The notes under the pieces were generated by a model that was not told where the DNA came from, searched no databases, and saw only the letters and a list, made by a program, of their open reading frames with translations. Shown in pieces: positions 7,846-41,377 of a stretch of 41,402 nucleotides of DNA (its first letter is position 1; the number at the start of each line of letters is the position of its first letter). Made by a program: the position numbers and the translations under genes. The stretch spans positions 1 through 41,402 of the forward strand of contig JAFWVX010000003.1 in the NCBI GenBank assembly GCA_017523785.1. The letters run 5' to 3'. The DNA comes from Lachnospiraceae bacterium. GTDB taxonomy: Bacteria > Bacillota > Clostridia > Lachnospirales > Lachnospiraceae.

Positions 7846-7897
7846 GTAGGGGACGACATCCTGTCGTCCCTCGGGCGGACAGAATGTCCGCCCCTAC
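7846..7897. repeat. 52-bp double-hairpin palindromic repeat
   Basis: Two adjacent hairpins, GGACGACA-tcc-TGTCGTCC and GGGCGGACA-gaa-TGTCCGCCC, are enclosed by matching ends GTAGGGG and CCCCTAC. The unit ends a few bases from the ribosome site of the ROK kinase gene. Confidence 0.93.
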
Positions 7898-7922
7898 CAT
7901 ACTTTTAACACTTTATATCCTA

Positions 7923-7974
7923 GTAGGGGACGACATCCTGTCGTCCCTTGGTCGGACAAAATGTCCGCCCCTAC
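7923..7974. repeat. 52-bp double-hairpin repeat overlapping the hydrolase stop codon
   Basis: Same architecture as the copy at 7846-7897, separated from it by 25 bases; the second hairpin has one mismatch (GTCGGACA against TGTCCGCC). On the minus strand its terminal GTAGGGG supplies the TAG stop codon of the GH13 gene. Confidence 0.93.
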
Positions 7975-9899
7975 TTTATTGCAAATACCTTGTAACCCAA
8001 TGGGGTCATATCAACTTCTAATCTATTGTCACTAATTGTAATAACTTCCCCACTCAACAAATCCACCGCCTCATTTCCATTTAATTCTATACTTACATGC
8101 TCACCTTCATCGTGGAAAATGCCTCTATTTACAATTACAACTACTTTCTCATCCTTAGTAGTTCTCTCAAATGCATATGTGTGTGCACCAGTATATAAAG
8201 TTCTAAACTCACCTTCCGCAAACACCTTCGACTTCTTTCTCATTTCGCCTAAGGCAACATAGTGAGAGCAAAGTTCAGTGTCCTCTTTGCCCCATGGATA
8301 TGGTTTTCTATTATATGGGTCGTTGTAGCCATAAACTCCAACCTCATCTCCATAGTATAGAAGTGGTGTGCCTGGAACTGTGTACTGCAAAACCGAAAGT
8401 GTTTTCAATCTACTAACTGCAAGTAAGTACTTATCTCTATCTATAAAATGATTTTTCTTTTCATCTTCACTCATCTCACTTACATCTCTTGAATCAGATA
8501 ACTGAGTTATAATTCTAACTCTGTCGTGACCATCAATAAGATTTAAGTTTGCATTAAAGTATTCTCTTGGATAATTTTCCATCTGCTTATAGAAAAACTC
8601 AGAGAGTTCGTAAGCAGATATATGTCCTTCCATAAAATTGATTGCATTTACCATGAAAGGATAATTCATAACTGACTTAAGTGAGCCATTTATAAAATAT
8701 TTTCTATTCTTGTCATAAGAAACTTTATTTGTCGCATCTTCCCAAACTTCACCTACAAGTATACTGTCCTTATTGACTCTATCCATCGCCTTTCTAATCT
8801 CTACTATAAACTCATCAGGAAGTTCATCAGCAACATCAAGTCTAAATCCTGCAATGCCAGTTCTCATCCAATGCTTTATAACTGAGTTTAATCCCTTGCA
8901 AATGAAGTCTACATATGATGGACACATCTCATTTACTTCAGGCAAATCAGAAACTCCCCACCAACTCTCATACACATCAGGATATTTTATAAACTTATAC
9001 CATGGATAATATTTTGAGTTCTCGCTGTTGTATGCACCGACACTGTCATAGTTACTAAACTTATTGAAATAAACTGAGTCTGCACCCTGATGACTAAATA
9101 CTCCATCAAGCACAACTCCGATTCCCTCTTTCTTAGCAGCATGCACAAATGCTTTGAAACTCTTGTCATCGCCGAGGAATGAATCTATCTTCATATAGTC
9201 GCCAATGTCGTATCTATGATTGCTTCTTGCTTCAAAAATTGGATTTAAGTAAAGGCAAGTTACACCAAGCTTTTTCAAATACTGAAGTTCTTCCTCTATA
9301 CCCTTAAGTGTGCCGCCGTAGAATTCGAAATCAAGTACACCACCATTTTCATCTCTCACATACTCAGGGTCCTTATACCAGTCATCTACAAAAGTCTTTC
9401 CGTGATTCTTTCCTTCTATTCTCTTTAATGTATTTTCTTTTCTCTCCTCATAGTCTTCGCCTCTCTTAAATCTATCAGGGAAAATCTGATACACAATTCC
9501 CTCTTTAAACCACTTAGGAGACTTATCATCTTTATAAACAGTCAACTGATAACTCTTAGGACTATTATCAACTAAGACACCTTCACCACCTGACTGCAAA
9601 TCATTATTCGAATAAAAATATTTCTCATCAAAACTTTGCAATATGAAATGATACCAAATTAATGCTGGCTCCTTTGGCGCTTTAAATCTTGCAACATAAA
9701 TTTCTTCATTGTCATTACCTGACTCTTTTTCCATCTCGATCTCAGGAAGTTTTTTGTCATCCTGCCACATAGCAAGATAACACTTAAGACCTTTTATGTG
9801 GTCTACCACCTTAAGTCTAAATGTAACCTCTGTGCCAGTTGTAACAGCACCGAAAGGTTTCCTATAAAATTCATCCCTTGAGTTAAAGTATACTCTCAT
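7971..9899 (-). CDS. Neopullulanase/cyclomaltodextrinase-type GH13 alpha-glucan hydrolase
   Basis: Cytoplasmic 642-aa GH13 enzyme without a signal peptide. Residues 1-125 form the N-terminal beta-sandwich (CBM34-like) typical of neopullulanases and cyclomaltodextrinases. The catalytic barrel begins at GIVYQIFPDRF; conserved regions are DGVFSH, GFRLDVADE (nucleophile Asp355), GEVWE (acid/base Glu384) and DGHDR (Asp459 transition-state residue). It should hydrolyse alpha-1,4 (perhaps alpha-1,6) bonds of maltodextrins released from glycogen. AGGAG lies just before the ATG. It sits between glgA and the ROK kinase, consistent with dextrin breakdown to glucose. The TAG stop lies inside a palindromic repeat, suggesting the insertion truncated or replaced the original C-terminal end by a few residues. 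Confidence 0.9.
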   Translation of the reverse strand: MRVYFNSRDEFYRKPFGAVTTGTEVTFRLKVVDHIKGLKCYLAMWQDDKKLPEIEMEKESGNDNEEIYVARFKAPKEPALIWYHFILQSFDEKYFYSNNDLQSGGEGVLVDNSPKSYQLTVYKDDKSPKWFKEGIVYQIFPDRFKRGEDYEERKENTLKRIEGKNHGKTFVDDWYKDPEYVRDENGGVLDFEFYGGTLKGIEEELQYLKKLGVTCLYLNPIFEARSNHRYDIGDYMKIDSFLGDDKSFKAFVHAAKKEGIGVVLDGVFSHQGADSVYFNKFSNYDSVGAYNSENSKYYPWYKFIKYPDVYESWWGVSDLPEVNEMCPSYVDFICKGLNSVIKHWMRTGIAGFRLDVADELPDEFIVEIRKAMDRVNKDSILVGEVWEDATNKVSYDKNRKYFINGSLKSVMNYPFMVNAINFMEGHISAYELSEFFYKQMENYPREYFNANLNLIDGHDRVRIITQLSDSRDVSEMSEDEKKNHFIDRDKYLLAVSRLKTLSVLQYTVPGTPLLYYGDEVGVYGYNDPYNRKPYPWGKEDTELCSHYVALGEMRKKSKVFAEGEFRTLYTGAHTYAFERTTKDEKVVVIVNRGIFHDEGEHVSIELNGNEAVDLLSGEVITISDNRLEVDMTPLGYKVFAIK

Positions 9900-9927
9900 G
9901 TTTTTCTCCTATATGTCGCTAGCATTT

Positions 9928-9976
9928 GTAGGGGACGACATCTTGTCGTCCCTTGGGCGGACAACATGTCCGCCCC
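9928..9976. repeat. Double-hairpin palindromic repeat
   Basis: GTAGGGGACGACA-tct-TGTCGTCC followed by GGGCGGACA-aca-TGTCCGCCCC. It lies between glgA and the GH13 gene, ending upstream of the GH13 ribosome site. The last three bases of the outer stem are degenerate (AAC instead of TAC). Confidence 0.9.
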
Positions 9977-9980
9977 AACT

Positions 9981-10005
9981 GTATGGGCGAGCTGCGCGAG
10001 CCCTA
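9981..10005. repeat. Single-hairpin palindrome touching the glgA stop codon
   Basis: GGGCGAGC-tgc-GCGAGCCC-type unit with a GTAT flank. On the minus strand the first G of the repeat is the last base of the glgA TAG stop. Confidence 0.88.
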
Positions 10006-11604
10006 TTGCACGCCAGCTACTTCTTTGTATAGTTTTTTATATTCTTTCGCAGAACTTGCCCACGAATAATCATTTGCACTTGCATTCTTTATCAAAGTCT
10101 TAAATGTATCATAGTCATCATAGTATAATCCTATCGCCTCTTTTATAGTGAATAACAGCTCATGTGCATTTATATTTTGGAATGCAAAACCTGTTCCATC
10201 TTTTGTAAACTTATTGAATGGCTCTACTGTGTCCTTAAGTCCTCCTGTCTTTCTAACTATAGGAAGTGACAAATATCTCATTGATATAAGTTGACTAAGT
10301 CCACATGGCTCAAATATACTTGGCACTAAGAATAAATCTGATGCCGCATATATTCTTCTTGATCTCTCTTCTGAAAAGCAGATGCTTGAACTTACTTTTC
10401 CTCTATATTTATTTTCAAAATATCTAAACGAGTCTTCATATCTTCTATCACCTTGACCTAGTAATACAAATTGCACTTCACAAGTATTAATCATCTCTTC
10501 AAATATTGCAGTGAGTAAATCCATTCCCTTTTGGTCGGTGAGTCTACTTACAAGTCCTATCACACAAACTTTCTCATCTTCTTTAAGTCCAAGTTCTCTT
10601 TGAAGTCCAATCTTATTTTTCTTTTTTAATTCTAAAGTATTTATATCATAGTTCATAAAAAGATTTTTATCAATCTTAGGATTATAAACTTCATAGTCAA
10701 TTCCATTTACAATTCCTCTAAAGATACTTGCTCTTCTATTAAATATTTCTTCTAAGCCTTCACCAAAGAATGAATTCTTAACCTCATCCGCATAAGTTGG
10801 ACTAACTGTAGTGAGATAATCTGAATAGTTGAGCGCTCCCATCATAAAGTTCACTGCATCTTTTTGAAGGAGCTGTCTTTTTGCATTTGGATATCTCTCA
10901 AGGTCAAGTGGGTCCTTAAGCATATTTGGGTCAAACTTTCCTTGGAATTTTAAATTATGAACTGTGAAAATTGTTTTAAGTTTCCTAAACTTCTCAAGCC
11001 CCTGATACATTTCACGAAGGTACACTGCAGAAAGTGCTGTGTGCCAATCATTTAAATGTAAAACTTCTGGCTCAAAGTCCATATAGATAAGTGCTTCAAG
11101 AAGTGCCTTTGAGAAAAATGCAATTCTCTCGCCATCATCATAATATCCGTAAGCCTTATCTCTCTTAAAATAATATTCGTTATCTAAAAAATAAACTATT
11201 GTGTTTCCATGCTTAAGCTCATAGAGTCCAAGATACTGATTTCTCCAACTAAATGGAACATAGAACTCTGAAACCTTCTTCATGTTTTTTCTATATTCCT
11301 CTTTTATAGAAGAAAATAGTGGCATGATAACTCTCGTCTCAACACCAATCTCATTTAAATATCTTGGAAGTGCTCCTGCCACATCACCAAGTCCACCAGT
11401 TTTTATAAATGGTGCAACTTCAAATGCCGCAAATAAAACTTTCACCTCAGGTTTCTTTTCCGTCGGTGCTACAACTGCACTTGCGTTTGTTTGTGCTACA
11501 ACTGTTGTAACTGGTGCTACTGCAACACTTGTTGGTGTTAATCCATTTGAATTCGTATGGGCGAGCTGTGCGAGCCCCTCACTTTTTATCTCGTTTCCAC
11601 TCAT
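10003..11604 (-). CDS. glgA: Glycogen synthase (ADP-glucose)
   Basis: GT5 glycogen synthase of 533 aa that transfers glucose from ADP-glucose to the growing alpha-1,4 glucan. The conserved core starts near residue 53 (VKVLFAAFEVAPF) with the ADP-glucose-binding KTGGLGDV motif; the C-terminal half has SIFEPCGLSQ and KTGGLKDTV. The first 50 residues are a Thr/Ala/Val-rich extension absent from most GlgA proteins, and residues about 9-17 (EGLAQLAHT) are encoded by a palindromic repeat. The start is supported by GAGGAA at proper spacing 10 nt after glgD; an internal start at the core lacks similar support by eye. The TAG stop is completed by another repeat. It lies in the order glgP-glgC-glgD-glgA. 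Confidence 0.95.
   Translation of the reverse strand: MSGNEIKSEGLAQLAHTNSNGLTPTSVAVAPVTTVVAQTNASAVVAPTEKKPEVKVLFAAFEVAPFIKTGGLGDVAGALPRYLNEIGVETRVIMPLFSSIKEEYRKNMKKVSEFYVPFSWRNQYLGLYELKHGNTIVYFLDNEYYFKRDKAYGYYDDGERIAFFSKALLEALIYMDFEPEVLHLNDWHTALSAVYLREMYQGLEKFRKLKTIFTVHNLKFQGKFDPNMLKDPLDLERYPNAKRQLLQKDAVNFMMGALNYSDYLTTVSPTYADEVKNSFFGEGLEEIFNRRASIFRGIVNGIDYEVYNPKIDKNLFMNYDINTLELKKKNKIGLQRELGLKEDEKVCVIGLVSRLTDQKGMDLLTAIFEEMINTCEVQFVLLGQGDRRYEDSFRYFENKYRGKVSSSICFSEERSRRIYAASDLFLVPSIFEPCGLSQLISMRYLSLPIVRKTGGLKDTVEPFNKFTKDGTGFAFQNINAHELLFTIKEAIGLYYDDYDTFKTLIKNASANDYSWASSAKEYKKLYKEVAGVQ
11554..11578. repeat. Palindromic repeat in frame within the 5' end of glgA
   Basis: CGTATGGGCGAGCTGTGCGAGCCCC matches the single-hairpin repeat family. 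It is translated in frame in the glgA N-terminal extension as part of EGLAQLAHT. Confidence 0.88.
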
Positions 11605-11613
11605 ATCTTCCTC

Positions 11614-12711: not shown

Positions 12712-12728
12712 TTTTTCCTCCTTTAATC

Positions 12729-12753
12729 CGTAGGGGCGAGCTACGCGAGCCCT
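12729..12753. repeat. Single-hairpin palindrome between glgC and glgD
   Basis: CGTAGGGGCGAGC-tac-GCGAGCCC-type unit. On the minus strand it starts one base after the glgC TAG stop codon. Confidence 0.9.
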
Positions 12754-13890: not shown

Positions 13891-13901
13891 ATTTCCTCCC
13901 T

Positions 13902-13924
13902 GGGCTCGCACAGCTCGCCCATAC
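13902..13924. repeat. Single-hairpin palindrome upstream of glgC
   Basis: GGGCTCGC-aca-GCTCGCCC with an ATAC flank, 2 nt from the glgC ribosome site. First of three repeat units packed into the glgP-glgC gap. Confidence 0.88.
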
Positions 13925-13927
13925 ATG

Positions 13928-13947
13928 CGGGCGGATGATATCCGCCC
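13928..13947. repeat. Divergent single palindrome GGGCGGAT/ATCCGCCC
   Basis: GGGCGGATgatATCCGCCC is a perfect inverted repeat with an 8-bp arm, related to the GGGCGGACA half of the composite repeats but with a different tip. Confidence 0.8.
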
Positions 13948-13955
13948 TATTGGCT

Positions 13956-14007
13956 CGTAGGGGCGGACATTCTGTCCGCCCATGGACGACAAAATGTCGT
14001 CCCCTAC
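13956..14007. repeat. Composite double-hairpin repeat, inverted order, after glgP
   Basis: GTAGGGGCGGACA-ttc-TGTCCGCC followed by GGACGACA-aaa-TGTCGTCCCCTAC, the reverse orientation of the copies near 7.9 kb. It starts 3 nt after the glgP TAG stop. Confidence 0.93.
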
Positions 14008-14010
14008 ATT

Positions 14011-16422: not shown

Positions 16423-16472
16423 TGGTATATTCCTCACTTACTTAAACTAACTTATATGAATATTTTTTAATT

Positions 16473-19112
16473 TTACTCTTCTAAATTTATACAAATCACT
16501 GGTCTTATCCCACTTGATTTGTAATTTGGTGGTACAAAACCATCTTTAAGTCTACCAGATACATCAATCACACATGCTTCTTTTTTAGCCAAACCCTCAC
16601 CGCCATCTTGTCTTACCCAATACTCACAAAAAGTATATGAAACATCATAATCATCTCCGAATATACTTTTTAAATTTTGATCATAAGCATTTAAGTGCGA
16701 ATTATAATTGTCAACTTTTACTGCATATTCTGTTGCTTGTGCCATTAAACTACCATTCGGGTAATTAAGTTCTCCACCTAATAACTGCTCTGTTTCTTCT
16801 CTATCAAGAATTGTAACATAATCATTATAGTATTTATGCATCATCATCTTTTCATTGTCATTAAAAGCTTCATTAAAAAACTCTTCGTTCAACCACTTTC
16901 TTAAACTACAACTTTCCCATGTAAGATAATTATAATCTTCACTATTTTCATCATAACACTTACAATCTAAAACATACTTTGAAATAAGCAATACTTTATT
17001 ATCGACTCTGCGAATTAATATCCATTCAATATTTTCTTTACCATTTTTATTATTATTATCTTGTTCATACCTACCAAATTGAAATGTTGGGCTCTTCATA
17101 ATTTCATCATGTGGATATCCACCATAGCGTCCTATAAGCACTTTACCTTTCTTTAAATCATCTTTCAGTATTTTATAATTGATATCTCTATCATCCTGCT
17201 TGATATCCTCACCCGATACAAGTTCTGTCTCTTTTTTTGAAACCAATTTTTCAACACTTATTTCCTTTTTATCACTGTATCTTATGTAACCCTTTCGGTC
17301 ACCCTTCTCATAATAACCCGCATATACAGACTGATAATCTAATCTATCATATTCACTAAGAACCACTTCTCCAGTTTTGTCAATTGCGCCCCATTTATCA
17401 TTTTGTTTCACAAATATTAAGTCTCCACATTTATAATCAGTTCTTATGCTATTACCCCATGCATTAAAATTGCTAACATCTTTCAAAATTAATTCTTTTG
17501 ATTTAAAATCTTTTGAATATCTATAAATATTACCATTAATACAAACTAACACCCCATTTTTCAAAAAACTAGCATCTATGTAACTAATTCCACTAAGTAT
17601 AATATTAAATTCATCATCATACAAATCAGATAATCCGCCATCTATGATAGTTAAATAGTACTTTTTGCGATTAATATCTAATAATGCTATATCATTGGCA
17701 TAATACTTACTATCAAACTTTTTTACAACATTATAATCAAAATCGTAGATTACCAAATCATTGAAATTATATTTTGGCAAATTTGCATCATTCTGACCAA
17801 CGACAAACATACCATAATTCATTAAATCCCAATCATCTCTATATCTACTAGTAACATTATTAAGTAGTACACCATACACTTCAACCACATTCAAATCAGT
17901 ATCAAGAAACTTAAATGCTTGTCGATAAGTATATTGAGATTGCCGAACTGAATATGTACCAGTAATTAACATTTGACCATTGTATATATTGCTTTCGAGC
18001 TCATTATAGTCTTCATCTAAACTTTTAATTATATTATAATTATCATCAATGACTACAGTTTCTTTATTGTTTGATGAAAATTTCTTACCATTTAATTCAA
18101 AATATTTTATCTTTCCCACATCTTCAAATAACAGTTTTAAATCTCTGTTATAAATATTATATGTGCGATCCTCTAGTCTTGCAATGATTAAATCTTTATT
18201 ATTCTCAGCAAAGTTGATTTCTACAATTTTAATATTGTTCTTTTTCTCTATCTCATCAATAATTCTTCTTTCTTCTTCTTTTATATTGATAATTTCATCT
18301 TTGTTTATAATTTGTCTTTTATTTATATCAAATAATACTTTGTATTTTCCATCTTTTAATTCTATAGTGCTTCTATTGTAATTATCATTAATTACCTCGT
18401 ATGGCTCGTCAAACAATAAGTTGCCATTTGTATCAAGTAAATTGTTTCCATCTTTCTTTAATGTATAACCATCAGTAAATAGTTTTAAATATTTATTTCC
18501 GCATATTTTTACAATCTGATGAGTAAAACATGAATAATCTAAATATCCCTCTAATCTTTTTATAAAATTTAGATTTTCATCACATAAAACTGATACACCC
18601 CACACGCTTCCTTCACCCACTTTAGAAAAAACGGAAAACTCACCAAACTTTGTCAAATAGTTGTATTCGTTTAATTCTTTAATTTGTTCTATTTCGTTAG
18701 TTAATTTGTTAACACGAACAAATCCCTTTTTGTTTCTAAAAATATGATAGTCCGAAGTTGAATACTCATATACTGCATCTTCCATTTCAAATTCAAAGCC
18801 CAACTTATTACCTTTCATATCATAAAAAACAAATCTTGACATGCCATATTCTATTAATTTATGTTTTATACATATAGTTGGTACTTTATCGGCTACCCCT
18901 ACATCATAACTCTCTGATTCAGTGTCATATGTCATTATTTCATTGAAATCTTTATCATATATATGGCTCCTACCATATTTATCATCTAACACAAATGGAT
19001 ATGATACATTTGCATTAGTATCAAAATTATTTGACTTAAAAGCACTACAAGAGCAAAGAATATTTATAATTAATACGTATATTAAAACTTGTATTTTGAA
19101 CTTGTTTATCAT
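16473..19112 (-). CDS. Large lipoprotein with WG-like repeats and a C-terminal DUF6273 domain
   Basis: Predicted exported lipoprotein, 879 aa, signal segment 5-22 ending in LCSC. Residues about 40-640 consist of beta-rich repeats of the kind found in WG-repeat proteins (YDMKGNKLGF, LDTNGNLLFD, DKWGAIDKTGEVVLSEYD near residue 571), probably a propeller-like surface domain. Residues about 672-878 are a DUF6273 domain, with FGRYEQDNN, EWILIRR, LLISKYVLD, SLRKWLNEEFFNEAF, YWVRQDG and GIRPVICI. The segment FGRYEQDNNNKNGKENIEWI is very close to that of the 3670-5349 protein, indicating recent duplication or shared selection. It lies between the DUF3990 cassette (21 nt) and glgP (50 nt). Function unknown; binding of a surface glycan or peptidoglycan is conjecture. 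Confidence 0.8.
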   Translation of the reverse strand: MINKFKIQVLIYVLIINILCSCSAFKSNNFDTNANVSYPFVLDDKYGRSHIYDKDFNEIMTYDTESESYDVGVADKVPTICIKHKLIEYGMSRFVFYDMKGNKLGFEFEMEDAVYEYSTSDYHIFRNKKGFVRVNKLTNEIEQIKELNEYNYLTKFGEFSVFSKVGEGSVWGVSVLCDENLNFIKRLEGYLDYSCFTHQIVKICGNKYLKLFTDGYTLKKDGNNLLDTNGNLLFDEPYEVINDNYNRSTIELKDGKYKVLFDINKRQIINKDEIINIKEEERRIIDEIEKKNNIKIVEINFAENNKDLIIARLEDRTYNIYNRDLKLLFEDVGKIKYFELNGKKFSSNNKETVVIDDNYNIIKSLDEDYNELESNIYNGQMLITGTYSVRQSQYTYRQAFKFLDTDLNVVEVYGVLLNNVTSRYRDDWDLMNYGMFVVGQNDANLPKYNFNDLVIYDFDYNVVKKFDSKYYANDIALLDINRKKYYLTIIDGGLSDLYDDEFNIILSGISYIDASFLKNGVLVCINGNIYRYSKDFKSKELILKDVSNFNAWGNSIRTDYKCGDLIFVKQNDKWGAIDKTGEVVLSEYDRLDYQSVYAGYYEKGDRKGYIRYSDKKEISVEKLVSKKETELVSGEDIKQDDRDINYKILKDDLKKGKVLIGRYGGYPHDEIMKSPTFQFGRYEQDNNNKNGKENIEWILIRRVDNKVLLISKYVLDCKCYDENSEDYNYLTWESCSLRKWLNEEFFNEAFNDNEKMMMHKYYNDYVTILDREETEQLLGGELNYPNGSLMAQATEYAVKVDNYNSHLNAYDQNLKSIFGDDYDVSYTFCEYWVRQDGGEGLAKKEACVIDVSGRLKDGFVPPNYKSSGIRPVICINLEE

Positions 19113-19133: not shown

Positions 19134-19334
19134 TCATTTATTCTCTGCAATTATATTGTCAGCAAGATATATATCACTTCTACAATGCATATCTGCTATC
19201 TTTTCTCTCATGTAATCATAAGTATCAGATGTGTAAAACATTTTAAGTGCCTCATCCAAACTTTTTCCTGCTCTTTCAGCAAGAACTTCTATAACCTTTG
19301 CATATTTTCTTTGCATCAATATCTTATTAGCCAT
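19134..19334 (-). CDS. DUF3791 family small protein (antitoxin-like partner)
   Basis: A 66-aa acidic-to-neutral helical protein resembling DUF3791: an N-terminal helix with KYAKVIEVLAERAGKSLDEALKMF and a C-terminal IADMHCRSDIYLADNII block. Its start overlaps the end of the DUF3990 gene by 8 nt, so it is translationally coupled. DUF3791 proteins are commonly encoded next to DUF3990 proteins, which belong to the ADP-ribosyltransferase fold; an antitoxin or accessory role is inferred from this pairing. No DNA-binding motif is obvious. Confidence 0.7.
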   Translation of the reverse strand: MANKILMQRKYAKVIEVLAERAGKSLDEALKMFYTSDTYDYMREKIADMHCRSDIYLADNIIAENK

Positions 19335-19812
19335 TTACAACATCTGCCCCTACATATTTTAAATACTTATCTATCGCCTCTTGTTTCCTTATACAAATTT
19401 GACTATTCACGGTTTCATACTTAAGTCTTCCTATAGCCTCATCTGCACTAATTAAATTGTCAAAATATAATTCTATCGTGTCAAACACTTTATCATTAGC
19501 TATGCCACCAACAACTACATCAAAATCCGTATTATCTTTACCACTTCTACATATTGATATAAAGTCTAACCATTCTTTAGAATACGAATTAAATCGTAGC
19601 ACTTTTAACTCTGAGAAAATCTTATCATCCAAATCAAGCTTTAGCACATAACTTTTTGCAGTTTTTTCTATATTCTTTTTTCTCTCACTCCACTTTTTGG
19701 CTTGCTCATAAATCTCTGTCAAATAAAAACCTTTTGAAAAATCTAATTCTTTTCTTGAATATTTTAGATTTGGGTTTTCAAACGATGTATTTGAACCATG
19801 ATATACTATCAT
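19327..19812 (-). CDS. DUF3990 family protein, ADP-ribosyltransferase-like (putative toxin)
   Basis: A 161-aa cytoplasmic protein matching DUF3990 by eye. It starts VYHGS (His5, the first conserved ART residue), continues SRKELDFSKGFYLT with the expected second-motif Tyr, then a helix EQAKKW, the block DFDVVVGGIANDKVFDTIELY, and the terminal KYETVNSQICI. DUF3990 is grouped with ADP-ribosyltransferase folds; NAD-dependent modification of an unknown target is the likely activity, but the catalytic third residue is Gln rather than Glu at the best candidate site. It overlaps the preceding DUF3791 gene by 4 nt and the following one by 8 nt, a three-gene coupled cassette typical of toxin-antitoxin systems. 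The toxin role is inference. Confidence 0.72.
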   Translation of the reverse strand: MIVYHGSNTSFENPNLKYSRKELDFSKGFYLTEIYEQAKKWSERKKNIEKTAKSYVLKLDLDDKIFSELKVLRFNSYSKEWLDFISICRSGKDNTDFDVVVGGIANDKVFDTIELYFDNLISADEAIGRLKYETVNSQICIRKQEAIDKYLKYVGADVVNG

Positions 19813-20055: not shown

Positions 20056-20078
20056 GGGCTCGCAATGCTCGCCCCTAC
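20056..20078. repeat. Single-hairpin palindrome upstream of the DUF3791 gene
   Basis: GGGCTCGC-aat-GCTCGCCCCTAC unit, about 28 nt before the DUF3791 start, between glgB and the cassette. Confidence 0.9.
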
Positions 20079-20084: not shown

Positions 20085-20134
20085 GTAGGGGCGGACATTT
20101 TGTCCGCCCTTGGACGACAGAATGTCGTCCACTA
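20085..20134. repeat. Composite double-hairpin repeat after glgB
   Basis: GTAGGGGCGGACA-ttt-TGTCCGCC followed by GGACGACA-gaa-TGTCGTCC and ACTAC. It begins within 3 nt of the glgB TAA stop on the minus strand. Confidence 0.92.
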
Positions 20135-20137
20135 CAT

Positions 20138-22373: not shown

Positions 22374-22398
22374 AGGGACGCCAGGATGTCGTCCCCTA
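22374..22398. repeat. Single GACGAC-type palindrome, degenerate
   Basis: GGGACGCCAggaTGTCGTCCCCTAC is one half of the composite repeat, with one arm mutated (GCCA for GACA). It lies about 107 nt upstream of glgB, at the decayed end of a small secreted-protein gene. Confidence 0.82.
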
Positions 22399-22399
22399 C

Positions 22400-22601
22400 G
22401 GTTGACTCAGTCTCTTCAGTTGACTCGCTCTCTTCTTCCGGGCTCGCAGTGCTCGCCCCTACGGGTTTCTTCGCTAGTTTCCTCAACATACTATGTTGCT
22501 TCTTTGCTCGCATCATTTGTAGATGCCAAACTTGGCAATGTGCTACACATCACCATTGCAATACTTAAAAAGATTGCTAAAAGTTTTTTGAGGTTTTTCA
22601 T
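22400..22601 (-). pseudogene. Decayed small secreted protein interrupted by a palindromic repeat
   Basis: An ATG at 22601, with GGAGG 7 nt upstream, starts a 36-codon frame (22491-22601). It encodes a clear signal peptide: MKNLKK, a hydrophobic core, and a likely cut after LPSLA. It stops at TAG inside a short palindrome (AACATAGTATGTT). Past that stop the same frame reads YVEETSEET, then enters a repeat copy at 22440-22464. Beyond the repeat a Glu/Ser/Thr-rich peptide (EEESESTEETEST) continues one frame off. The simplest reading is a secreted Glu/Thr-rich protein broken by a stop mutation and a repeat insertion. Alternatively the 36-aa product is functional by itself. Neighbours are Fic upstream and glgB downstream. 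Confidence 0.55.
22440..22464. repeat. Single-hairpin palindrome inside the decayed secreted-protein gene
   Basis: GGGCTCGC-agt-GCTCGCCCCTACG, the same sequence core as the copy within the histidine kinase. Flanking bases on both sides encode Glu/Ser/Thr-rich peptides in different frames. Confidence 0.9.
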
Positions 22602-22633: not shown

Positions 22634-23746
22634 TTATATTTTTACATACCATGCGCCATTAGTGACGCCATGCTTTTTAATCAATCCCTTGTCTTGCATG
22701 AGTTTTAAAGCTCTTTTTATTTTTCCTTCGTGCTCATCTACATTTGCATGTATATATTTTAAGTCTACTCTATCTACCTCTTCAAATAATTTATATATTT
22801 TCACAGCCGCAATTGGCAAGTCCTCGATAATTTCCTCTTCATTTTTCGCCGCATGATTTTTAAATTTATTTTCTTCGAAATGATTTTCTGCATTACTCAT
22901 TTCAATTTGGCTTATTTTGTATTCAAGTCTTACTTTTTGCTTTTCTAATATCTTTATAAAAAAATCTATCCACGCACTGTAATCAGTTTCATTACTCTTC
23001 AATGTCTCTTGGGTTTTTCTAAGTTCTAAATAATATTCAGACTTATTGTCCTCTACAACCGCTTCTAGTGATGAATAAGCAACATATCCATATCCTGCTT
23101 TCAGAAGAAGTAAGTTTGTAAGAACTCTACTCAACCTTCCATTGCCGTCTTGAAATGGATGTATCGCCAAAAAGTGAACTACAAAAACTGCTATTAAAAT
23201 CAGCGGGTGATAAATTCTTTTTTCCAAATTGTAATTTGTCCAGTCGATAAGTTCTTTCATAAGATTCGGTGTATCAAACGGTGTCGCTGTCTCAAATATC
23301 ACACCTATCTCTTTACCATTTTCATCAAATGCTGATACAGAATTTGATAGCGTTTTATACTCACCCCTATGTCTCTCATCTTTTGAAGAATATTTTAATA
23401 AAATTGAATGAAGTTGTTTAATATAATTCTCTGTGAAAGGAACTATCTCATAATCATTAAAAATCAAATTTGAAACTTCTGCATATCCTGCGACCTCTTC
23501 TTCATCTCGTGATTTAAATGAAGTCATTTTTACATTTGAAAGAATTTTTTCAACTTCTTTATCTGATAATTTATTTCCCTCTATACGATTTGATGAGCCC
23601 ACGCTTTCTATAGTCGCAACTTTTTTCAAGTAATTTAAAATCTCAGGACTCATTTGCTTTATCGCCTTCCACTCACCTCTAAATTCTTCGATGACGGAAA
23701 TCCTGTTGAGTATTTCATTATTAATTTTTGCCTTAAAATTAATCAT
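22634..23746 (-). CDS. Fic family AMP-transferase with N-terminal inhibitory helix and winged helix
   Basis: A 370-aa cytoplasmic Fic protein. The catalytic motif HPFQDGNGR lies at 196-204 (His196) and is complete. An N-terminal inhibitory motif SNRIEGN (Ser52, Glu56) matches the [S/T]xxxE[G/N] helix of class II Fic enzymes, so activity should be self-restrained. Residues about 310-370 (AAVKIYKLF to NGAWYVKI) look like a winged helix-turn-helix, as in many stand-alone Fic proteins. Fic enzymes usually transfer AMP from ATP to Ser, Thr or Tyr hydroxyls; the target is unknown. A GGGGG stretch about 11 nt before the ATG is the best ribosome site. Its promoter carries five phased decamer repeats, and the winged helix makes autoregulation plausible. 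Confidence 0.9.
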   Translation of the reverse strand: MINFKAKINNEILNRISVIEEFRGEWKAIKQMSPEILNYLKKVATIESVGSSNRIEGNKLSDKEVEKILSNVKMTSFKSRDEEEVAGYAEVSNLIFNDYEIVPFTENYIKQLHSILLKYSSKDERHRGEYKTLSNSVSAFDENGKEIGVIFETATPFDTPNLMKELIDWTNYNLEKRIYHPLILIAVFVVHFLAIHPFQDGNGRLSRVLTNLLLLKAGYGYVAYSSLEAVVEDNKSEYYLELRKTQETLKSNETDYSAWIDFFIKILEKQKVRLEYKISQIEMSNAENHFEENKFKNHAAKNEEEIIEDLPIAAVKIYKLFEEVDRVDLKYIHANVDEHEGKIKRALKLMQDKGLIKKHGVTNGAWYVKI

Positions 23747-27772: not shown

Positions 27773-29182
27773 TTAGAGGTATAACTCAAATGTCGTTCCT
27801 TTATCAATCTCACTTTTTACATCAATTTTTGCTCCCAGATAATCAACTGAACTTTTTACAACCGCAAGACCTATACCAAAGTGACCATCATCACCTTTAT
27901 AATAACGAGTAAAAATATTTTGTAATTTGCTGTTATCTATGCCCTTTCCATCATCAGTAATTGAAACCACAAATTCATGGCGTAGGGGCGAGCACTGCGA
28001 GCCCGCACCTTCAACTTTAATTACAACTTGCGAATTTGCATACTTTATAGCATTGCTTAGCAAGTTTTGTATTATTCTCACCACCAACTTCCTATCACTC
28101 TTTATTACGCCCTCATCATCCAATCTATTTTCAAACACCACCGCCTTACTCTCATCAATCACTTTCACTGTCTCTACCTGCTCATTTATTAAGTCCACGA
28201 GACTCAACTCTTCCTCATTTCCCTTATATGTATCATTGTCAAAACGGCTGAGTATCAAAATATTTTCAATCATCTCTTTCAACTGATTTCCAGTTCTCAA
28301 AATTACATCGCAGGCTTTGTTCTTATCCTTTATAATTCCAGACTTAAGTCCATCCGCATATCCAAGAATAGACACAAGCGGTGTCCTCAAATCATGTGCG
28401 ACATTTTCATAAATGGTATTCTTTCTATTTGACTCCTCGTCAATTTTTTCTTGCATATTGATGAGTGACTGTCTAAGCGACTCAAGTTCAGTTGTAGAAA
28501 TGTTTTTATCTCCAATCGTCACACCTTTACCAATCACATATTCCTCCGACTCTTTTGAAAGTTTGATTATTGGCTTTGACAAATCTCTTGCAACCATAAA
28601 CACTGTGAGGATTACTAAGACAAGTATGGCGAGTTGAATTAATAGCAACTGTCTCGAACTCTCTCTAAGTAAGTTTGACTTGCCGGTTAATTCTTGAATT
28701 ACTACAAAATATTTCCCATTTATATTAAGTGAATCACTCGTCACATAAGTATTTGCAATATACTCTTTATTATTGAAAGTAATATTAGTAAGAGTCTCTT
28801 CTTCAAGCTCGTAGTCAGCAAGAAGTGATGACAAAAATGAGAGCATTTCTCTATCTATGTATATGTTGTTGTCAAAAAGTGAAACTTCATTATAATTTTT
28901 ATCAAACACATAAACTTGAGTGTTATTACTCTGATTCACAAGATGTTCAGAAGGCTTCAACACAAAAACATTTTCACTTGACTCCTTGAAACTATTCACC
29001 TGCTCAACCACATCATTGTATGCTTCAGAAAGTTTTTCCTTCGCATTATCTTTTACAAATCTATCTATAGAAAAATAGTTAATTAAAAAAGTGGCAACTG
29101 CAAAAATCACCACTATCTGCACAATGGGCCAAAATATCTTACTAAAAATTTTTTTAGTTTTTTTATTTGCTACTCTTTCCAT
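27773..29182 (-). CDS. Sensor histidine kinase with a repeat inserted in its ATPase domain
   Basis: Membrane sensor kinase partner of the adjacent response regulator, 469 aa from ATG 29182. A longer TTG-started frame to 29200 overlaps the regulator and has no suitable site. Membrane segments flank an extracytoplasmic domain (about 45-165), followed by HAMP, the H-box ENVAHDLRTP (His263), N-box QNLLSNAIKYA, G1 DDGKGID, F-box FTRYYKGDD and G2 GIGLAVVK. Between the N-box strand (QVVIKVEG) and EFVVSI, about ten residues (AGSQCSPLRH) are encoded by a palindromic repeat at 27981-28004 and are in frame. The insert sits in a surface turn before the G1 box, so function may survive. It is followed by an amino-acid ABC transporter, its likely regulon. 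Confidence 0.9.
   Translation of the reverse strand: MERVANKKTKKIFSKIFWPIVQIVVIFAVATFLINYFSIDRFVKDNAKEKLSEAYNDVVEQVNSFKESSENVFVLKPSEHLVNQSNNTQVYVFDKNYNEVSLFDNNIYIDREMLSFLSSLLADYELEEETLTNITFNNKEYIANTYVTSDSLNINGKYFVVIQELTGKSNLLRESSRQLLLIQLAILVLVILTVFMVARDLSKPIIKLSKESEEYVIGKGVTIGDKNISTTELESLRQSLINMQEKIDEESNRKNTIYENVAHDLRTPLVSILGYADGLKSGIIKDKNKACDVILRTGNQLKEMIENILILSRFDNDTYKGNEEELSLVDLINEQVETVKVIDESKAVVFENRLDDEGVIKSDRKLVVRIIQNLLSNAIKYANSQVVIKVEGAGSQCSPLRHEFVVSITDDGKGIDNSKLQNIFTRYYKGDDGHFGIGLAVVKSSVDYLGAKIDVKSEIDKGTTFELYL
27981..28004. repeat. Palindromic repeat in frame inside the histidine kinase gene
   Basis: CGTAGGGGCGAGC-act-GCGAGCCC unit. Translated on the minus strand it gives GSQCSPLR, a peptide foreign to HATPase domains. 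The same peptide would be encoded by other copies of this repeat in this frame. Confidence 0.93.
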
Positions 29183-29882
29183 CAGAAAGTCTATATCCAA
29201 CTCCCCAAATCGTGTCTATACTAATTTTAGCTTTGTTCTCTTCAAGTTTCTTTCTAAGTCTCTTAAGTAAATCATCTATAACTCTATTGTCGTCCTCTTC
29301 ATATCCCCATACATCTGCAAGTATATCCTTCTTAGTCACTGCCTCTTTCTTTTTCTCAAACATATAAGTCAAAAACTTATACTCTATATTTGTAAATGAC
29401 ACTGGTTTCTTATTGATAGTTACCTGCATCGCACCTGTGTCTATGACCATATTAGAAAATTCCAAAATCTCTTTTGGCTTCTCAACTTTCTTCACCGGTC
29501 CTCTCTCACTTCTTCTCAAGACATTTTTAACTCTCGCCACAAGTTCGAGCGGCATAAAAGGTTTAACTATATAGTCATCACTTCCCTCATTGAAACCTCT
29601 GACCTTGTCCACCTCTTGATCCTTCGCAGAAACCAAAATCACCGGCACCTCGCTCTTATCTCTTATCTTTGCGAGTGCATCAAAGCCATCCATTCCTGGA
29701 AGCATTATGTCAAGAGTTATGAGATTTGGCTCCTTCTTCTTCACTGCATTTAAAAGTTTCTCAGCAGTGTCAAATGTCTCTGCCTCAAAGTTGTCATTCT
29801 CAAGATACATCTTTATGAGCTCAGAAATATTTTTATCGTCATCACAGACATATATTATTTTTTTTGCTTGCTTATCTGCCAT
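29163..29882 (-). CDS. OmpR-type response regulator
   Basis: A 239-aa two-component regulator. The receiver domain (1-125) has the acidic pocket CDDD (14-16), phospho-acceptor Asp58 in LDIMLPG, and the LVSAKD block with the conserved Lys. The C-terminal winged helix (about 145-235) has FTNIEYKFL, KKDILADVWGYEEDDNRVIDDLLKRLR and GVGYRL, typical of OmpR/PhoB. GAGGTG precedes the ATG. Its end overlaps the kinase start by about 20 nt, so both are coupled. It lies 10 nt after the DUF234 ATPase gene. Target promoters are unknown. Confidence 0.94.
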   Translation of the reverse strand: MADKQAKKIIYVCDDDKNISELIKMYLENDNFEAETFDTAEKLLNAVKKKEPNLITLDIMLPGMDGFDALAKIRDKSEVPVILVSAKDQEVDKVRGFNEGSDDYIVKPFMPLELVARVKNVLRRSERGPVKKVEKPKEILEFSNMVIDTGAMQVTINKKPVSFTNIEYKFLTYMFEKKKEAVTKKDILADVWGYEEDDNRVIDDLLKRLRKKLEENKAKISIDTIWGVGYRLSDGKSSK

Positions 29883-32067: not shown

Positions 32068-32096
32068 TTGCTAAAATTTTCTAATTATTCTATAAT
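32068..32096 (+). promoter_or_regulatory. Sigma-A promoter of pduL-ackA
   Basis: TTGCTA (32068-32073), 17-nt spacer, TATAAT (32091-32096). It sits directly after the preceding terminator and about 37 nt upstream of the pduL ATG. Confidence 0.75.
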
Positions 32097-32132
32097 AGTA
32101 GCAATGTAAGGGCACAGCCCGGAGGAGTTATT

Positions 32133-32690: not shown

Positions 32691-32696
32691 TAACAT

Positions 32697-32721
32697 CGTA
32701 GGGGCTTTTCCCTGCGAGCCC
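32697..32721. repeat. Degenerate palindromic repeat between pduL and ackA
   Basis: CGTAGGGGCttttccctGCGAGCCC retains the GTAGGGGC and GCGAGCCC ends of the single-hairpin family, but the left arm and the loop have mutated. It starts about 6 nt after the pduL TAG stop. Confidence 0.72.
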
Positions 32722-32740
32722 AATTTTAAAGGAGAAAATT

Positions 32741-33931: not shown

Positions 33932-33942
33932 AAAATGTAAAA

Positions 33943-33975
33943 TAAAAAGGGTGCGGAATGAACCGCACCTTTTTT
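33943..33975. terminator. Bidirectional terminator between ackA and deoC
   Basis: GGTGCGG-aatgaa-CCGCACC (33950-33956 with 33963-33969) is a perfect 7-bp stem flanked by A residues on the left and T residues on the right, so it works for both converging genes. Confidence 0.9.
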
Positions 33976-33989
33976 ATTCTTAGTTCTAA

Positions 33990-34649: not shown

Positions 34650-34657
34650 TTATGCTC

Positions 34658-35611: not shown

Positions 35612-35612
35612 A

Positions 35613-36713: not shown

Positions 36714-36714
36714 A

Positions 36715-38271: not shown

Positions 38272-38309
38272 AATCATCCTTTCACTTCTCTTTTGCTTTT
38301 AACTTATAT

Positions 38310-38341
38310 AAAAAATAGGACTCAAAATTTTTTGAGTCCTA
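38310..38341 (-). terminator. Intra-operon stem-loop between the BMP gene and the ATPase gene
   Basis: On the minus strand TAGGACTCAAAA-TTTTGAGTCCTA-type arms form a stem of at least ten pairs followed by TTTTTT. It lies about 18 nt after the lipoprotein stop. Partial termination here would leave the binding protein in excess over the membrane subunits. Confidence 0.75.
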
Positions 38342-38358
38342 CTTTCATATGATATAAA

Positions 38359-39483
38359 TTATTCAATAAAAGTCACTTTTGTATTTGATAAATTAGTTAA
38401 TGCTGTTGCTGGATTACTTTCTGTAACATCATTAAAGATGTTAAATTTACCTGCTTTTAAGTCATTATAAACAACATCATAATCAGCTTTAGTAAATGTA
38501 TTAAATCTTGCATTGTCCATAGCAGCACCAACACCATTATTCTTTGCATTAAATACTGTTGTCTTTCCACCTGGGAATTTGCCATCATAGAACATTGTGA
38601 TTCCGTCGTAAACTGAATTTGAAAGAAGCTTTATAGCAGATGTAATAACTGTATCACTTTCTGAATATTGATCAACATCTACACCAATAACCTTTGCAAC
38701 AAACTTTCCTTCTTGTTGATTCTTTCCTTCAGCTGCACTCATTGCTGAGTTACCAACAGCACCGCCACAACCGAATACTACTTCTGTACCGGCATTATAC
38801 CAAGAAGAAGCAAGTGCTTGAGCTTCTGGAGTAGCTGCAAATGCTCCTGTGTAGTTGTAAACTACTTCACAATTTACACCGAGTTCTTTTGCTGCTGCAT
38901 CTATTCCTTGAATATATCCAAATCCGAAACGAACAACTGCTGGAACTGCCATACCACCTAAGAAACCAAGTTTAGTGTTGCCGTCTTTTACTGCTGCATA
39001 ACCAGCAAGGAACCCTGCTTCGTCCTCTTGATATAGGATAGGCATAGTATTGCTTCCTGTCTTATATGTGCTGTAATCTGCAGTATGTGGCTCACCATCA
39101 AGAAGAATGAAGTGAGTATCTGGATACTTTTCTTGAGCAAGATATACTGGCTCTTCAAATAAGTAACCTGGGCATACAACTAACTTTGCTCCACCTTCGA
39201 TAGCAAGTTCAATTGTCTCAAAATAAGCATTAGTCTCTGCTGCTTGTGGTTGATAGTACTTGTGAGAAATGCCTTTTTCATTTGCATACTTTACAAGACC
39301 TTCCCATGCACCTTGGTTAAATGACTTATCGTCAATAGTTCCAAGATCAGTTACAAGTGCCAATTCAAATGTCTCCTTGTTTGATGAAGCAGAAGCACCT
39401 GAAGTAGCTGCTTGCTTTTGACCACATGCTACAAGTGTCAACACCATAGCAAGAGCCAATAAAGTAGATAATAATTTTTTCAT
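38359..39483 (-). CDS. BMP-family nucleoside-binding lipoprotein
   Basis: Extracellular substrate-binding lipoprotein of 374 aa, basic membrane protein (BMP/PnrA/Med) family, lipobox LVAC at residues 17-20. Typical blocks are LVTDLGTIDDKSFNQGAWEGL near residue 44 (first 20 residues define the family), YYQPQAAETNAYFE, GFLGGMAVPAVVRFGFGY and VIGVDVDQYSES. Members bind purine nucleosides and related compounds. GGAGGG precedes the ATG. It is the first gene of the importer operon ending in deoC, which favours a nucleoside ligand; the exact specificity is not readable. Confidence 0.95.
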   Translation of the reverse strand: MKKLLSTLLALAMVLTLVACGQKQAATSGASASSNKETFELALVTDLGTIDDKSFNQGAWEGLVKYANEKGISHKYYQPQAAETNAYFETIELAIEGGAKLVVCPGYLFEEPVYLAQEKYPDTHFILLDGEPHTADYSTYKTGSNTMPILYQEDEAGFLAGYAAVKDGNTKLGFLGGMAVPAVVRFGFGYIQGIDAAAKELGVNCEVVYNYTGAFAATPEAQALASSWYNAGTEVVFGCGGAVGNSAMSAAEGKNQQEGKFVAKVIGVDVDQYSESDTVITSAIKLLSNSVYDGITMFYDGKFPGGKTTVFNAKNNGVGAAMDNARFNTFTKADYDVVYNDLKAGKFNIFNDVTESNPATALTNLSNTKVTFIE

Positions 39484-39510
39484 GATAATTTCCCTCCGAA
39501 ATTTTATTTT

Positions 39511-39516
39511 ATTATA
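39511..39516 (-). promoter_or_regulatory. Possible -10 box of the nucleoside importer operon
   Basis: TATAAT on the minus strand, 27 nt before the BMP lipoprotein start. No good -35 hexamer is seen 16-18 nt upstream (AAGAAA at best), so an activator may be needed or the site may be fortuitous. Confidence 0.35.
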
Positions 39517-39591
39517 GAAACCTTGTTCACCAGTTTCTTAAAATACTCTTAATATATTACCACATTTTTCATAAATTTTATAGTGCTTTTT

Positions 39592-41313
39592 TTACCTAGT
39601 TCCGCCCCCTGAGCCTCCGCCCGAGAAGCCTCCGCCACCGCCAAGAGATGCCATTCCGCCAAAGCCTTCTGCCGCCATTGTTGCAGCCTTTGCCATCTCT
39701 GCGGCTCTCCTTGCATTGTAGGTGCTATAATATAAGTTTCTAAAATAGATATCTGATACATAGTAAGTATTTGAAATCTTCTCTATCTCAACTAACTTAT
39801 CAGGATATACTTCTTTAAGTTCAGATAGCACCTTCTTAGCTATCCCAAAGAGTGTGGCATATACCATCAGGTCTTCCCAAATTATGCCTTCCATTACACC
39901 TCTTTCATTTATAAGTGTAAACTCGTCTAAGAACTTTCTAAGCCCATAAACTTCAGACAACTCTTTTTTGCCTTTTTCATTTAAATCGTTTAATCTTTTA
40001 CCGCCTACTCTATTGTAGCAGTCCTCTTGATTAAGTGCATTATGTCCTTTTGTATCAAGTGATTTTATATAATCAGTAAGTGCTTCGTAATTTTTCTGTG
40101 CATACTTTTTAAGTTCATTTTCTTGAAGCACCCCATCATCACCAGCCGCTTTTATTATAATGTCATACAATTCTCTTAAAAGCGGTTCAGTCGGTGCCTC
40201 GCCCACTCTAAGACTTGTGCTGATTTTTTCATTTCCAAAAAAGCCATATGACTTTTCTTGTATAGGTTCAAGATTGCCACTGTTAATTAATTTCATAATG
40301 ATGGCACCTATGACATTTGTTTCTTTATTTTTCCAAATGTCAAAATCTTTATATAGCATATGTGTCATCACCAAGTTTCCACCATTTGGATTATCTCTAA
40401 AATAATTTACTTCTTTATAAAAATTTTTTAATTCGGCTTTTCTTTTTATTTTAGCAACTATTGATGCAATTAAGGCAATGAAAAATATAACATATATTCC
40501 CGCAAAAAGAATGTCAGATAGTGATGGTCCTCGTCTCTTATTTCTCTCTAAGGTTTCTGCATAACTACTATTCTCAAGTGCCTTATTCAATACCGCATTT
40601 TCAAAAGTCTCACCTACTTCTACATTTGGAGTTAGTAATCCTTTAAAAATCTTAAGAGTTATATTCATGTAGTTGCTTCCTCTTAGTGCTTGATTGCTGT
40701 ATGCAACTGCATATCCCTCTTCTGAAAATGTTGCCATTCCACTATATCCAAAGCCCCAAATCCTCGCGATGTCAGATGTTAACTTCCTATCGCCATCAAC
40801 TCCTATCCTTAAAACAACATCACTTGGAAATGTAATCATATTTGGATTTACAAATTGAAAATTGAAACCGTCTGCATCTGTGTAGGATTTCACAAGTGGG
40901 TCTATATCGTAGCTAAAAGTATATATATTATTGCCATACTCTGATATTCCAAAACAAAGTTCCACACCCTTAGCCGTGCGGTAAATGCCGTATCTCCATT
41001 TTTTACTTTCGAAACTCCAGTCTGGGTTCCAAGTATCTGCTTCTAAATATTCTCTACCATCTTTCCATACTTTCAAGTTATTGACAATTAAACTCTTGTC
41101 CTCTATAGGTAGGTATACTTCTGTCCCCTCATTAAATGTGCCTGCCCACCTCTGTGTTATAGTTGCACTACCATTATTATGTATTGCAACATCAATGTCC
41201 ATTTTGTCTATATGGTTTTTGGCAAGACATAATGAGCAAGTGAAAATTGATATGAGAATGGTGCTCACAAGTAGCAATAATATTTTATTCATTTTTCTTA
41301 TTATACTTTTCAT
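39592..41313 (-). CDS. DUF2207-containing membrane protein with a Gly-rich C-terminus
   Basis: Predicted exported membrane protein of the DUF2207 family, 573 aa from ATG 41313 (alternative ATG 41292). A frame open to 41385 is rejected as a start because its first 24 codons only translate palindromic repeats. It has a signal or first membrane segment (KILLLLVSTILISIF), the DUF2207 beta-rich ectodomain (about 30-230, ITQRWAGTFNEGTEVYLPI), a second membrane helix near residue 270 (ILFAGIYVIFFIALIASIV), a cytoplasmic region of about 270 aa and the usual Gly/Ser-rich tail GGGGGFSGGGSGGG. Function of the family is unknown. Neither start has a clear ribosome site. It lies upstream of the importer operon, same strand, without visible terminator between them. 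Confidence 0.85.
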   Translation of the reverse strand: MKSIIRKMNKILLLLVSTILISIFTCSLCLAKNHIDKMDIDVAIHNNGSATITQRWAGTFNEGTEVYLPIEDKSLIVNNLKVWKDGREYLEADTWNPDWSFESKKWRYGIYRTAKGVELCFGISEYGNNIYTFSYDIDPLVKSYTDADGFNFQFVNPNMITFPSDVVLRIGVDGDRKLTSDIARIWGFGYSGMATFSEEGYAVAYSNQALRGSNYMNITLKIFKGLLTPNVEVGETFENAVLNKALENSSYAETLERNKRRGPSLSDILFAGIYVIFFIALIASIVAKIKRKAELKNFYKEVNYFRDNPNGGNLVMTHMLYKDFDIWKNKETNVIGAIIMKLINSGNLEPIQEKSYGFFGNEKISTSLRVGEAPTEPLLRELYDIIIKAAGDDGVLQENELKKYAQKNYEALTDYIKSLDTKGHNALNQEDCYNRVGGKRLNDLNEKGKKELSEVYGLRKFLDEFTLINERGVMEGIIWEDLMVYATLFGIAKKVLSELKEVYPDKLVEIEKISNTYYVSDIYFRNLYYSTYNARRAAEMAKAATMAAEGFGGMASLGGGGGFSGGGSGGGTR

Positions 41314-41324
41314 ATATATGAATC

Positions 41325-41344
41325 GGGCTCGCAGTGCGAGCCCC
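41325..41344. repeat. Single-hairpin palindrome upstream of the DUF2207 gene
   Basis: GGGCTCGCAgTGCGAGCCCC, a perfect 9-bp-arm inverted repeat of the same family with an altered right arm. It is 12 nt from the likely start codon. Confidence 0.85.
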
Positions 41345-41357
41345 AACCAAACTTCAC

Positions 41358-41377
41358 GGGCTCGTATAACACGCCCC
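41358..41377. repeat. Degenerate palindromic repeat at the window end
   Basis: GGGCTCGTataACACGCCCC keeps the GGGC/GCCC frame of the family with mutated arms. A further GGGACGTATAA fragment at the window edge (41392-41402) may be the start of another copy. Confidence 0.65.

Follow-up and report, generated by a model that had tools for sequence, protein, structure and literature searches.

The palindromic repeats scattered through a stretch of 41,402 nucleotides of a Lachnospiraceae genome (hereafter, the window) are best explained as a population of GTAG-class REPs and REPINs that was spread in trans by RAYT-type HUH enzymes acting on single-stranded DNA. We assign this interpretation a probability of about 0.9. 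The observations behind it are the structure and copy number of the repeats, the family palindromes that border the RAYT genes, the empty sites in congeneric species, and the conserved enzymes into which repeats have inserted in frame. The assembly, 1.216 Mb in size and 56% complete, includes the window as one contig.

REP units of the window

The heptamers GTAGGGG and CCCCTAC occur 16 times in the window, as compared with 1.14 expected, and none of 100 shuffled sequences reached this number. By reading of the sites, 14 of the 16 belong to hairpins. The heptamers at 18896 and 19347 were considered as REPs and rejected, being without an adjoining palindrome or hairpin in the sequence, and are ascribed to chance. 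A chance origin of the repeats as a whole is rejected by the shuffles and by reversed-pattern controls. The preliminary description had counted about 17 units with this frame; the full count is 22 REP units: five head-to-head pairs (REPINs, 51–52 bp) and 12 singles. This count takes in degenerate feet (GTAT and GTTG) and second arms; an automatic pattern alone gives 18. Three tip types (GAGC, ACGACA, and CGGACA) are joined by a fourth, CGGAT, which occurs once in the window.

Each of the five REPINs is composed of one ACGACA unit and one CGGACA unit, with 2–3 bp separating the hairpins, as in the definition of a REPIN as two inverted REPs close together. Three are in one orientation and two in the other. 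REPIN 1 (7846–7897, + strand) has an ACGACA-type REP (7846–7870, +) head to head with a CGGACA-type REP (7873–7897, −). REPIN 2 (7923–7974, +) has the same composition, and the TAG of its right-hand GTAG (7971–7973) is the stop codon of a gene for a 642-amino acid glycogen-debranching-like protein (7971–9899). REPIN 3 (9928–9979, +) likewise combines ACGACA and CGGACA types and has GTTG as its right foot. The reverse orientation, with CGGACA on the left and ACGACA on the right, is found in REPIN 4 (13957–14007, −), located between glgP and glgC, and in REPIN 5 (20085–20135, −), which has a right arm of GTAGTGG and lies just after a gene for a 719-amino acid protein of the alpha-amylase family. 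Positions 7841–7994 constitute a local duplication, in which two REPINs stand in tandem at a spacing of 77 bp and the units, including the spacer, are 82% identical.

Most singles are of the GAGC type. Three of these have the foot GTAT: 9981–10003 (+), which overlaps the stop codon of a glgA-like gene; 11555–11577 (+), which is coding in the N-terminal extension of the glgA-like gene; and 13902–13924 (−). Others are at 12730–12752 (+; between glgC and the downstream glgD-like gene, a site that is empty in six congeners and has other REPs in two), 20056–20078 (−), 22440–22462 (−), and 27982–28004 (+; inside a histidine kinase gene, 27773–29200, −). A degenerate GAGC-type REP (32698–32721, +) is upstream of an ackA-like gene, at a site that is empty in the congeneric genome G005. 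The remaining singles are an ACGACA-type REP with one stem mismatch (22375–22399, −), a REP with a perfect CTCGC stem (41325–41347, −) and a degenerate REP (41358–41380, −), both having the foot GTTG, and the CGGAT-type hairpin (13929–13947, no strand assigned), which was read by eye and is without a clear GTAG foot. The glycogen gene cluster is flanked by three large DUF6273-domain proteins (3670–6866 and 16473–19112) that share short DNA similarities, and the alpha-amylase-family gene lies between a DUF3990 protein (19327–19812) and a Fic-domain protein (22634–23746).

Folded as single-stranded DNA, the REPINs form two adjacent hairpins, each with 8–9 pairs and a 3-nt loop, and in all five the fold is better than in any of 200 shuffles (z of −6.9, −6.6, −8.3, −8.1, and −8.9 for REPINs 1 to 5, respectively). 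The folds place GTAG directly before the hairpin, in agreement with the foot of the GTAG class (GT[AG]G, 0–2 nt before a short GC-rich hairpin) and not with the CGTC class of Rickettsia palindromic elements. The GTAG and CTAC feet are unpaired in four of the five folds and paired only in REPIN 5, which has a Y shape as a result. The composites of two hairpins and the occurrence of both orientations are as first described, whereas the Y shape with a common outer stem applies to a single REPIN. The perfect palindrome at 41325 also folds well (z of −4.9). A tandem GA mismatch in the stem makes the fold of GAGC singles weak (z of −0.8 to −0.9 in three foldings of two sites).

Distribution in the genome, genus, and family

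A genome-wide search gave 176 matches to GTAGGGN12-20CCC in the assembly, a few of them nested duplicates, and three to the reversed pattern. Across 12 genomes of the genus, matches ranged from 6 to 442 and reversed-pattern controls from 3 to 25. The fewest matches were in G004 (6; control 8) and the most in G008 (442; control 7), and the signal was weak in G002 (36; control 25). G005, which is 98% complete, had 137 matches; of the first 100 listed, about three-quarters are REP-like, with the rest being another repeat, nested duplicates, or chance. In contig C3 of G005 (e.g., 195913–195939), a second repeat of a different family, GTAGGGGGTGGTGCTGGGGAGACCCCC, recurs ~30–70 bp from GAGTT-type REPs.

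A narrower REP pattern was run on 100 genomes of the family, one per genus, and matched in 19. Sets that look real were found only in our genome (128 matches) and in G047, of another genus (8 rows, 7 distinct, with GGCAT-like tips); the remaining genomes had one to four matches, the same as controls. A comparable set is thus present in 1 of 99 other genera, and copies at identical positions in distant genera did not come to light. Within this family sample, the repeats are nearly confined to the genus. The small set in G047 consists of GTAGGGGCGGCAT...CCGCCC palindromes and is probably a separate REP family.

Sequence variation was followed in 79 REPs placed in the window and in 20 genome stretches (190 kb), which were chosen around REP hits and are therefore non-random and give no density. 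GAGC is the commonest type, and one 23-mer, GTAGGGGCGAGCACTGCGAGCCC, accounts for 19 of the 79 units in identical form. At RAYT loci, stems differ by lineage (GGGCGAACA, GGGCGATT, GGGCGACC, and GGGACGC), with both sides changed together as read by eye. The joint exchange of both sides between tip types, noted previously, is seen in the same way.

RAYT transposases

A search with Pfam Y1_Tnp found no Y1 transposase in the window contig, in keeping with the preliminary description, and found two genes on other contigs of the genome. RAYT-1 (172 amino acids) is encoded on contig C10, where CGGAT-type REPs in inverted orientation stand ~11 bp ahead of the start codon and 1 bp behind the stop codon. 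For RAYT-2 (161 amino acids, contig C11), the upstream REP is of the CCGACA type, ~36 bp from the start codon, and the inverted downstream REP is of the CGGACA type, ~4 bp from the stop codon. Both genes are thus bracketed by inverted palindromes of the family, the type of transposase for which a search had been suggested, and the repeats may be taken as the non-autonomous REP-like elements they were first supposed to be. Association with a RAYT holds in this genome for the CGGAT and CGGACA types; GAGC and ACGACA types bracket neither of the two RAYTs found, the assembly being 56% complete.

The NCBIfam model of REP-associated tyrosine transposases (NF047646) matches RAYT-1 with an E-value of 4.9e-22 and RAYT-2 with an E-value of 4.6e-19. 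The scores (78.4 and 68.7 bits, respectively) miss the cut-off of 80 bits, yet this is the lone best family for both proteins; RAYT-2 also scores below the Pfam cut-off. Both reading frames are open and have HUH (NHLH or NHIH), WQ, and Y..YNP motifs, with the tyrosine present in each. E. coli TnpAREP (4er8) can be aligned with the C-terminal block of RAYT-1 (E-value of 0.00034), with W-Q, E-H, R, and Y..NP retained; E-H is replaced by D-R in RAYT-2. Among the matches listed, the closest named relatives of RAYT-1 are from Clostridia. The six best plasmid matches listed for the GlgC protein come from Clostridia and other Bacillota, and the two results together suggest a Clostridia-like host.

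GTAG-tagged hairpins are concentrated around RAYT genes, with 1.58 per kb within 400 bp of 35 such genes and 0.17 per kb beyond 1 kb. These 35 loci are 26 of 41 named loci and nine from our genome or its congeners; L027 and L030–L043, which are partial or weak, were left out. By a strict rule, a tagged hairpin is found beside 18 of the 35, on both sides in nine, and beside none of the other 17. GAGC-type REPs bracket the RAYTs of G003 and G009 and occur only upstream of the RAYT on contig C25 of G011, and GAAGC-type units are on both sides of the RAYT of G008.

A Y1 match is present in 10 of the 12 genomes of the genus, and RAYT-1-like proteins in 6 of 11 congeners (G001, G003, G008, G009, G010, and G011). 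The Y1 proteins of G002, G006, and G007 are all longer and unlike RAYT-1, that of G007 having internal stops, and G006 and G007 carry REPs despite being without a RAYT-1-like protein. G004 has neither a RAYT nor REPs above control. In the 98% complete G005, the Pfam search gave no Y1 match despite the 137 REP-pattern matches, and the RAYT of G008 (L046/L064), the genome with the most matches, has an in-frame TAA. These last two genomes indicate that REP sets can outlive their transposase.

Turnover of REP sites between species

The sequences flanking the window sites were located in nine congeneric genomes, within stretches that are syntenic, and occupancy was judged by eye from the segments. 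Turnover is assessed from five intergenic sites, sites F, G, H, and K giving no alignment on both sides. Both flanks of site A are present in six genomes, none of which has its two REPINs. At site B, the REPIN is likewise absent in six of six, four of which are without any REP and two of which have other or degenerate REPs. Site D is empty in six genomes and has other REPs in two. For site E, both flanks are close by in seven genomes; G005 and G010 have intervals of 0 and 8 bp, respectively, and G001 and G011 have other REPs at this site. At site J, G007 has a different filling and G005 has none. There is thus turnover of sites from one species to another, and different types hit the same gaps. 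Fixation of the positions by common descent is rejected for the aligned sites, as they are empty or otherwise filled in congeners. Empty orthologous sites, for which the preliminary description proposed a comparison, do exist; as the polymorphism is between species, not strains, continuing mobility is at most a possibility. The flanks are too diverged for exact insertion junctions.

REPs inside genes

REPs occur both between and within genes, as first described. Of the 79 sampled REPs, 28 lie in ORFs that are 100 amino acids or longer, 48 between genes that run in the same direction, two between divergent genes, and one between convergent genes. The 51 outside such ORFs contrast with the ~91% of sampled bases that lie in them (mechanically defined ORFs): REPs are depleted in genes yet frequent there. 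About 21 of the 28 are probably coding. The other seven were judged by eye to be upstream of the true start, namely that at glgC (13957), three in the threonine synthase ORF, and those in the CysS, LepA, and L129 ORFs.

Genes bearing REPs include, by Pfam, those for MnmE, KsgA, threonine synthase, a HisS-like protein, MnmA, a U32 peptidase, an ABC-F-like ATPase, and the histidine kinase. MnmG also bears REPs, and further genes are named only by eye or unnamed. Comparison with solved homologues shows that the insertions add to the proteins. Residues 110–141 of KsgA, comprising a REP insertion, have no facing residue in 6ifs; residues 132–170 of MnmG are opposite two residues of 2zxh; and residues 205–270 of MnmA, only partly REP, are opposite 13 residues of 9hln. 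In MnmE the extra length is about five residues.

The same loops of KsgA and MnmA are, in congeners, empty or filled with intact or decayed REPs. For KsgA, 10 of the 11 genomes with a match were compared (G003 gave no ORF under the filter), and loop 1 is REP-coded in three of the 10, as is loop 2. For MnmA, 10 of the 12 genomes with a match were compared (G004 and G010, at 46–49% match, were left out); the first loop is REP-coded in five of the 10, among them G007 with four units, and three have a REP-coded loop after DVCF. The N-terminal extension of GlgA varies among congeners in like manner. The REP at 27982–28004 is read in frame within GAGSQCSPLRH of the HATPase_c domain of the histidine kinase, and this case is equivocal, as a REP-free loop of about the same length is present in G005. 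In MnmA (L121:1697–2953) and MnmG (L111:6477–8000), decayed REP-like peptide strings (VGAN.., VGAK.., and VGMS..) occur beside intact ones, as if insertions accumulate and erode within one loop.

The main 23-mer is open in five of its six frames. Among 26 REPs in ORFs with a stop codon, the 19 in sense orientation use two phases (12 and 7) and never the third, which would read TAG. The TAG of GTAGGG serves as stop codon in 3 of 152 ORFs, two of these in clear REPs. One might see in the RAYT-driven REPs of this genus a generator of new protein loops, with single-stranded transposition repeatedly bringing in-frame cassettes of ~8–9 codons into core enzymes of translation and metabolism, the element being shaped to survive in genes, and insertion and decay remodeling essential proteins. 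We regard this as speculative and rather improbable.

Sequence preceding the GTAG foot

A pyrimidine (C or T) precedes GTAG in 73 of 79 REPs of our genome, as against 505 of 942 other GTAGs (Fisher, 5e-13). Congeneric REPs have one in 41 of 43 cases, as against 924 of 1907 other GTAGs (5e-11); these tests are indicative only, since REP copies are not independent. The use of both C and T looks more like a site preference than a copied base. CT is the dinucleotide cleaved by E. coli and Stenotrophomonas TnpAREP, according to the account of cleavage in PMC8266576. CT directly before GTAG was considered as a signature here and is not favored, occurring in 11 of 79 REPs.

Proposed mechanism of spread and alternative explanations

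The unit would be a non-autonomous element consisting of a GTAG foot and a short hairpin, occurring singly or in head-to-head pairs. HUH/Y1 tyrosine transposases of the RAYT type, whose genes lie elsewhere in the genome, would recognize the foot and hairpin as single-stranded DNA, cut beside the unit, and join it to a new site, thereby spreading it in trans. New copies might persist between genes, at gene ends, or inside genes if they are in frame, free of stops, and in a tolerant loop. Single-strand cleavage and strand transfer by these RAYTs are suggested by the published biochemistry of E. coli and Stenotrophomonas TnpAREP. We infer that every tip type was moved by these two RAYTs or by further ones encoded in the portion that the assembly lacks.

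The same REP system might now be inactive, its copies being relics of earlier RAYT activity that only decay and recombine. The retention of many REPs by G005 with no RAYT found, the in-frame stop in the RAYT of G008, the decayed stretches in MnmA and MnmG, and the fact that every polymorphism seen is between species are all in accord with this. However, both RAYTs of our genome are open with HUH and tyrosine motifs, and the identical 23-mer in 19 of 79 units suits recent spread, or else selection. We consider inactivity possible, if on balance unlikely.

Much less plausible is that the palindromes are RNA-level elements under selection, such as terminators or stabilizers of mRNA 3' ends, with only an incidental link to RAYTs. 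The 48 of 79 REPs between genes of the same direction would suit such elements, and published REPs are often transcribed and near gene 3' ends, as noted in the discussion of REP location in PMC3733652. But 28 of 79 are in long ORFs, with coding positions among them, sites turn over between species, and the neighborhood of RAYT genes is enriched in REPs. MITEs of a conventional DDE transposon would also be short, palindromic, non-autonomous, and present in both orientations; the GTAG foot with its hairpin, the heteromeric head-to-head pairs, and the bracketed Y1 genes instead fit a RAYT, and we give a DDE transposon hardly any credence.

Relationship to known REP systems

Elements of this kind are already known, as intragenic REPs and the link between REPs and RAYTs are published. 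The present case adds the host genus, the co-residence of several types with heteromeric REPINs, a species series in which a RAYT is present or absent, and many in-frame copies in core enzymes for which sister species have empty alleles. GTAG REPs with RAYT genes are here combined with Rickettsia-like in-frame insertion into core genes, and the 12 species genomes, widely differing in load, form a natural series for REP movement, its effects on proteins, and the fate of REPs after loss of a RAYT. The word Firmicutes is absent from the text of PMC3733652 in a search for this word alone. Among the best matches in the open-licence literature on REP or RAYT with Firmicutes, Clostridia, Lachnospiraceae, or Bacillota, or on the sequence of the element itself, nothing relevant beyond PMC6006769 appeared, which does not establish absence from print.

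The passages of PMC3733652 (Di Nocera et al. 2013) on GTAG families describe REPtrons, TAG stops derived from REPs, and intragenic REPs, including those in tRNA-modification genes. The GTAG-tagged REPs treated there, in 24 families, have in common with ours the GTAG foot, stems of 6–9 bp, loops of 2–3 nt, head-to-head dimers, tip variants with paired changes, several families per genome, and REPs bracketing RAYT genes. The likeness extends to GTAG-derived TAG stops and to REPs in ORFs, tRNA-modification genes included. Rickettsia palindromic elements, as presented in the same source, are similar in that they too are palindromes inserted in frame into genes of conserved proteins, at times with several in one gene. 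However, RPE-4 and RPE-6 belong to the CGTC class and are listed there without a known dedicated transposase, whereas ours are of the GTAG class and accompanied by RAYT genes.

Inverted pairs of unlike REPs are also seen in the E. coli REPIN/BIME (Y and Z REPs), as outlined in sections of PMC6006769 and PMC8266576, although the stem sequences differ from ours. E. coli REPs have a mid-stem mismatch, described in PMC8266576 as needed for cleavage, which resembles the GA mismatch of the GAGC type; the GA/GA found here is not the E. coli one. REPtron Sm of Stenotrophomonas maltophilia, as depicted in PMC8266576, has a REP of 23 nt with an 8-bp perfect palindrome and a 3-nt loop, near in size to the CGGAT type. 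It differs in sequence and host, and CT is not favored directly before GTAG in our repeats. In the classification portion of PMC6006769, TnpAY1 subclass 2.4 (RAYT group 4) shares with our RAYTs the NH-hydrophobic-H, WQ, and Y...NP motifs, as compared by eye, along with long REPs and three G-C pairs at the foot of the stem. YIxNNP is listed for subclass 2.4, while the two RAYTs described here have YMVYNP and YIIYNP.
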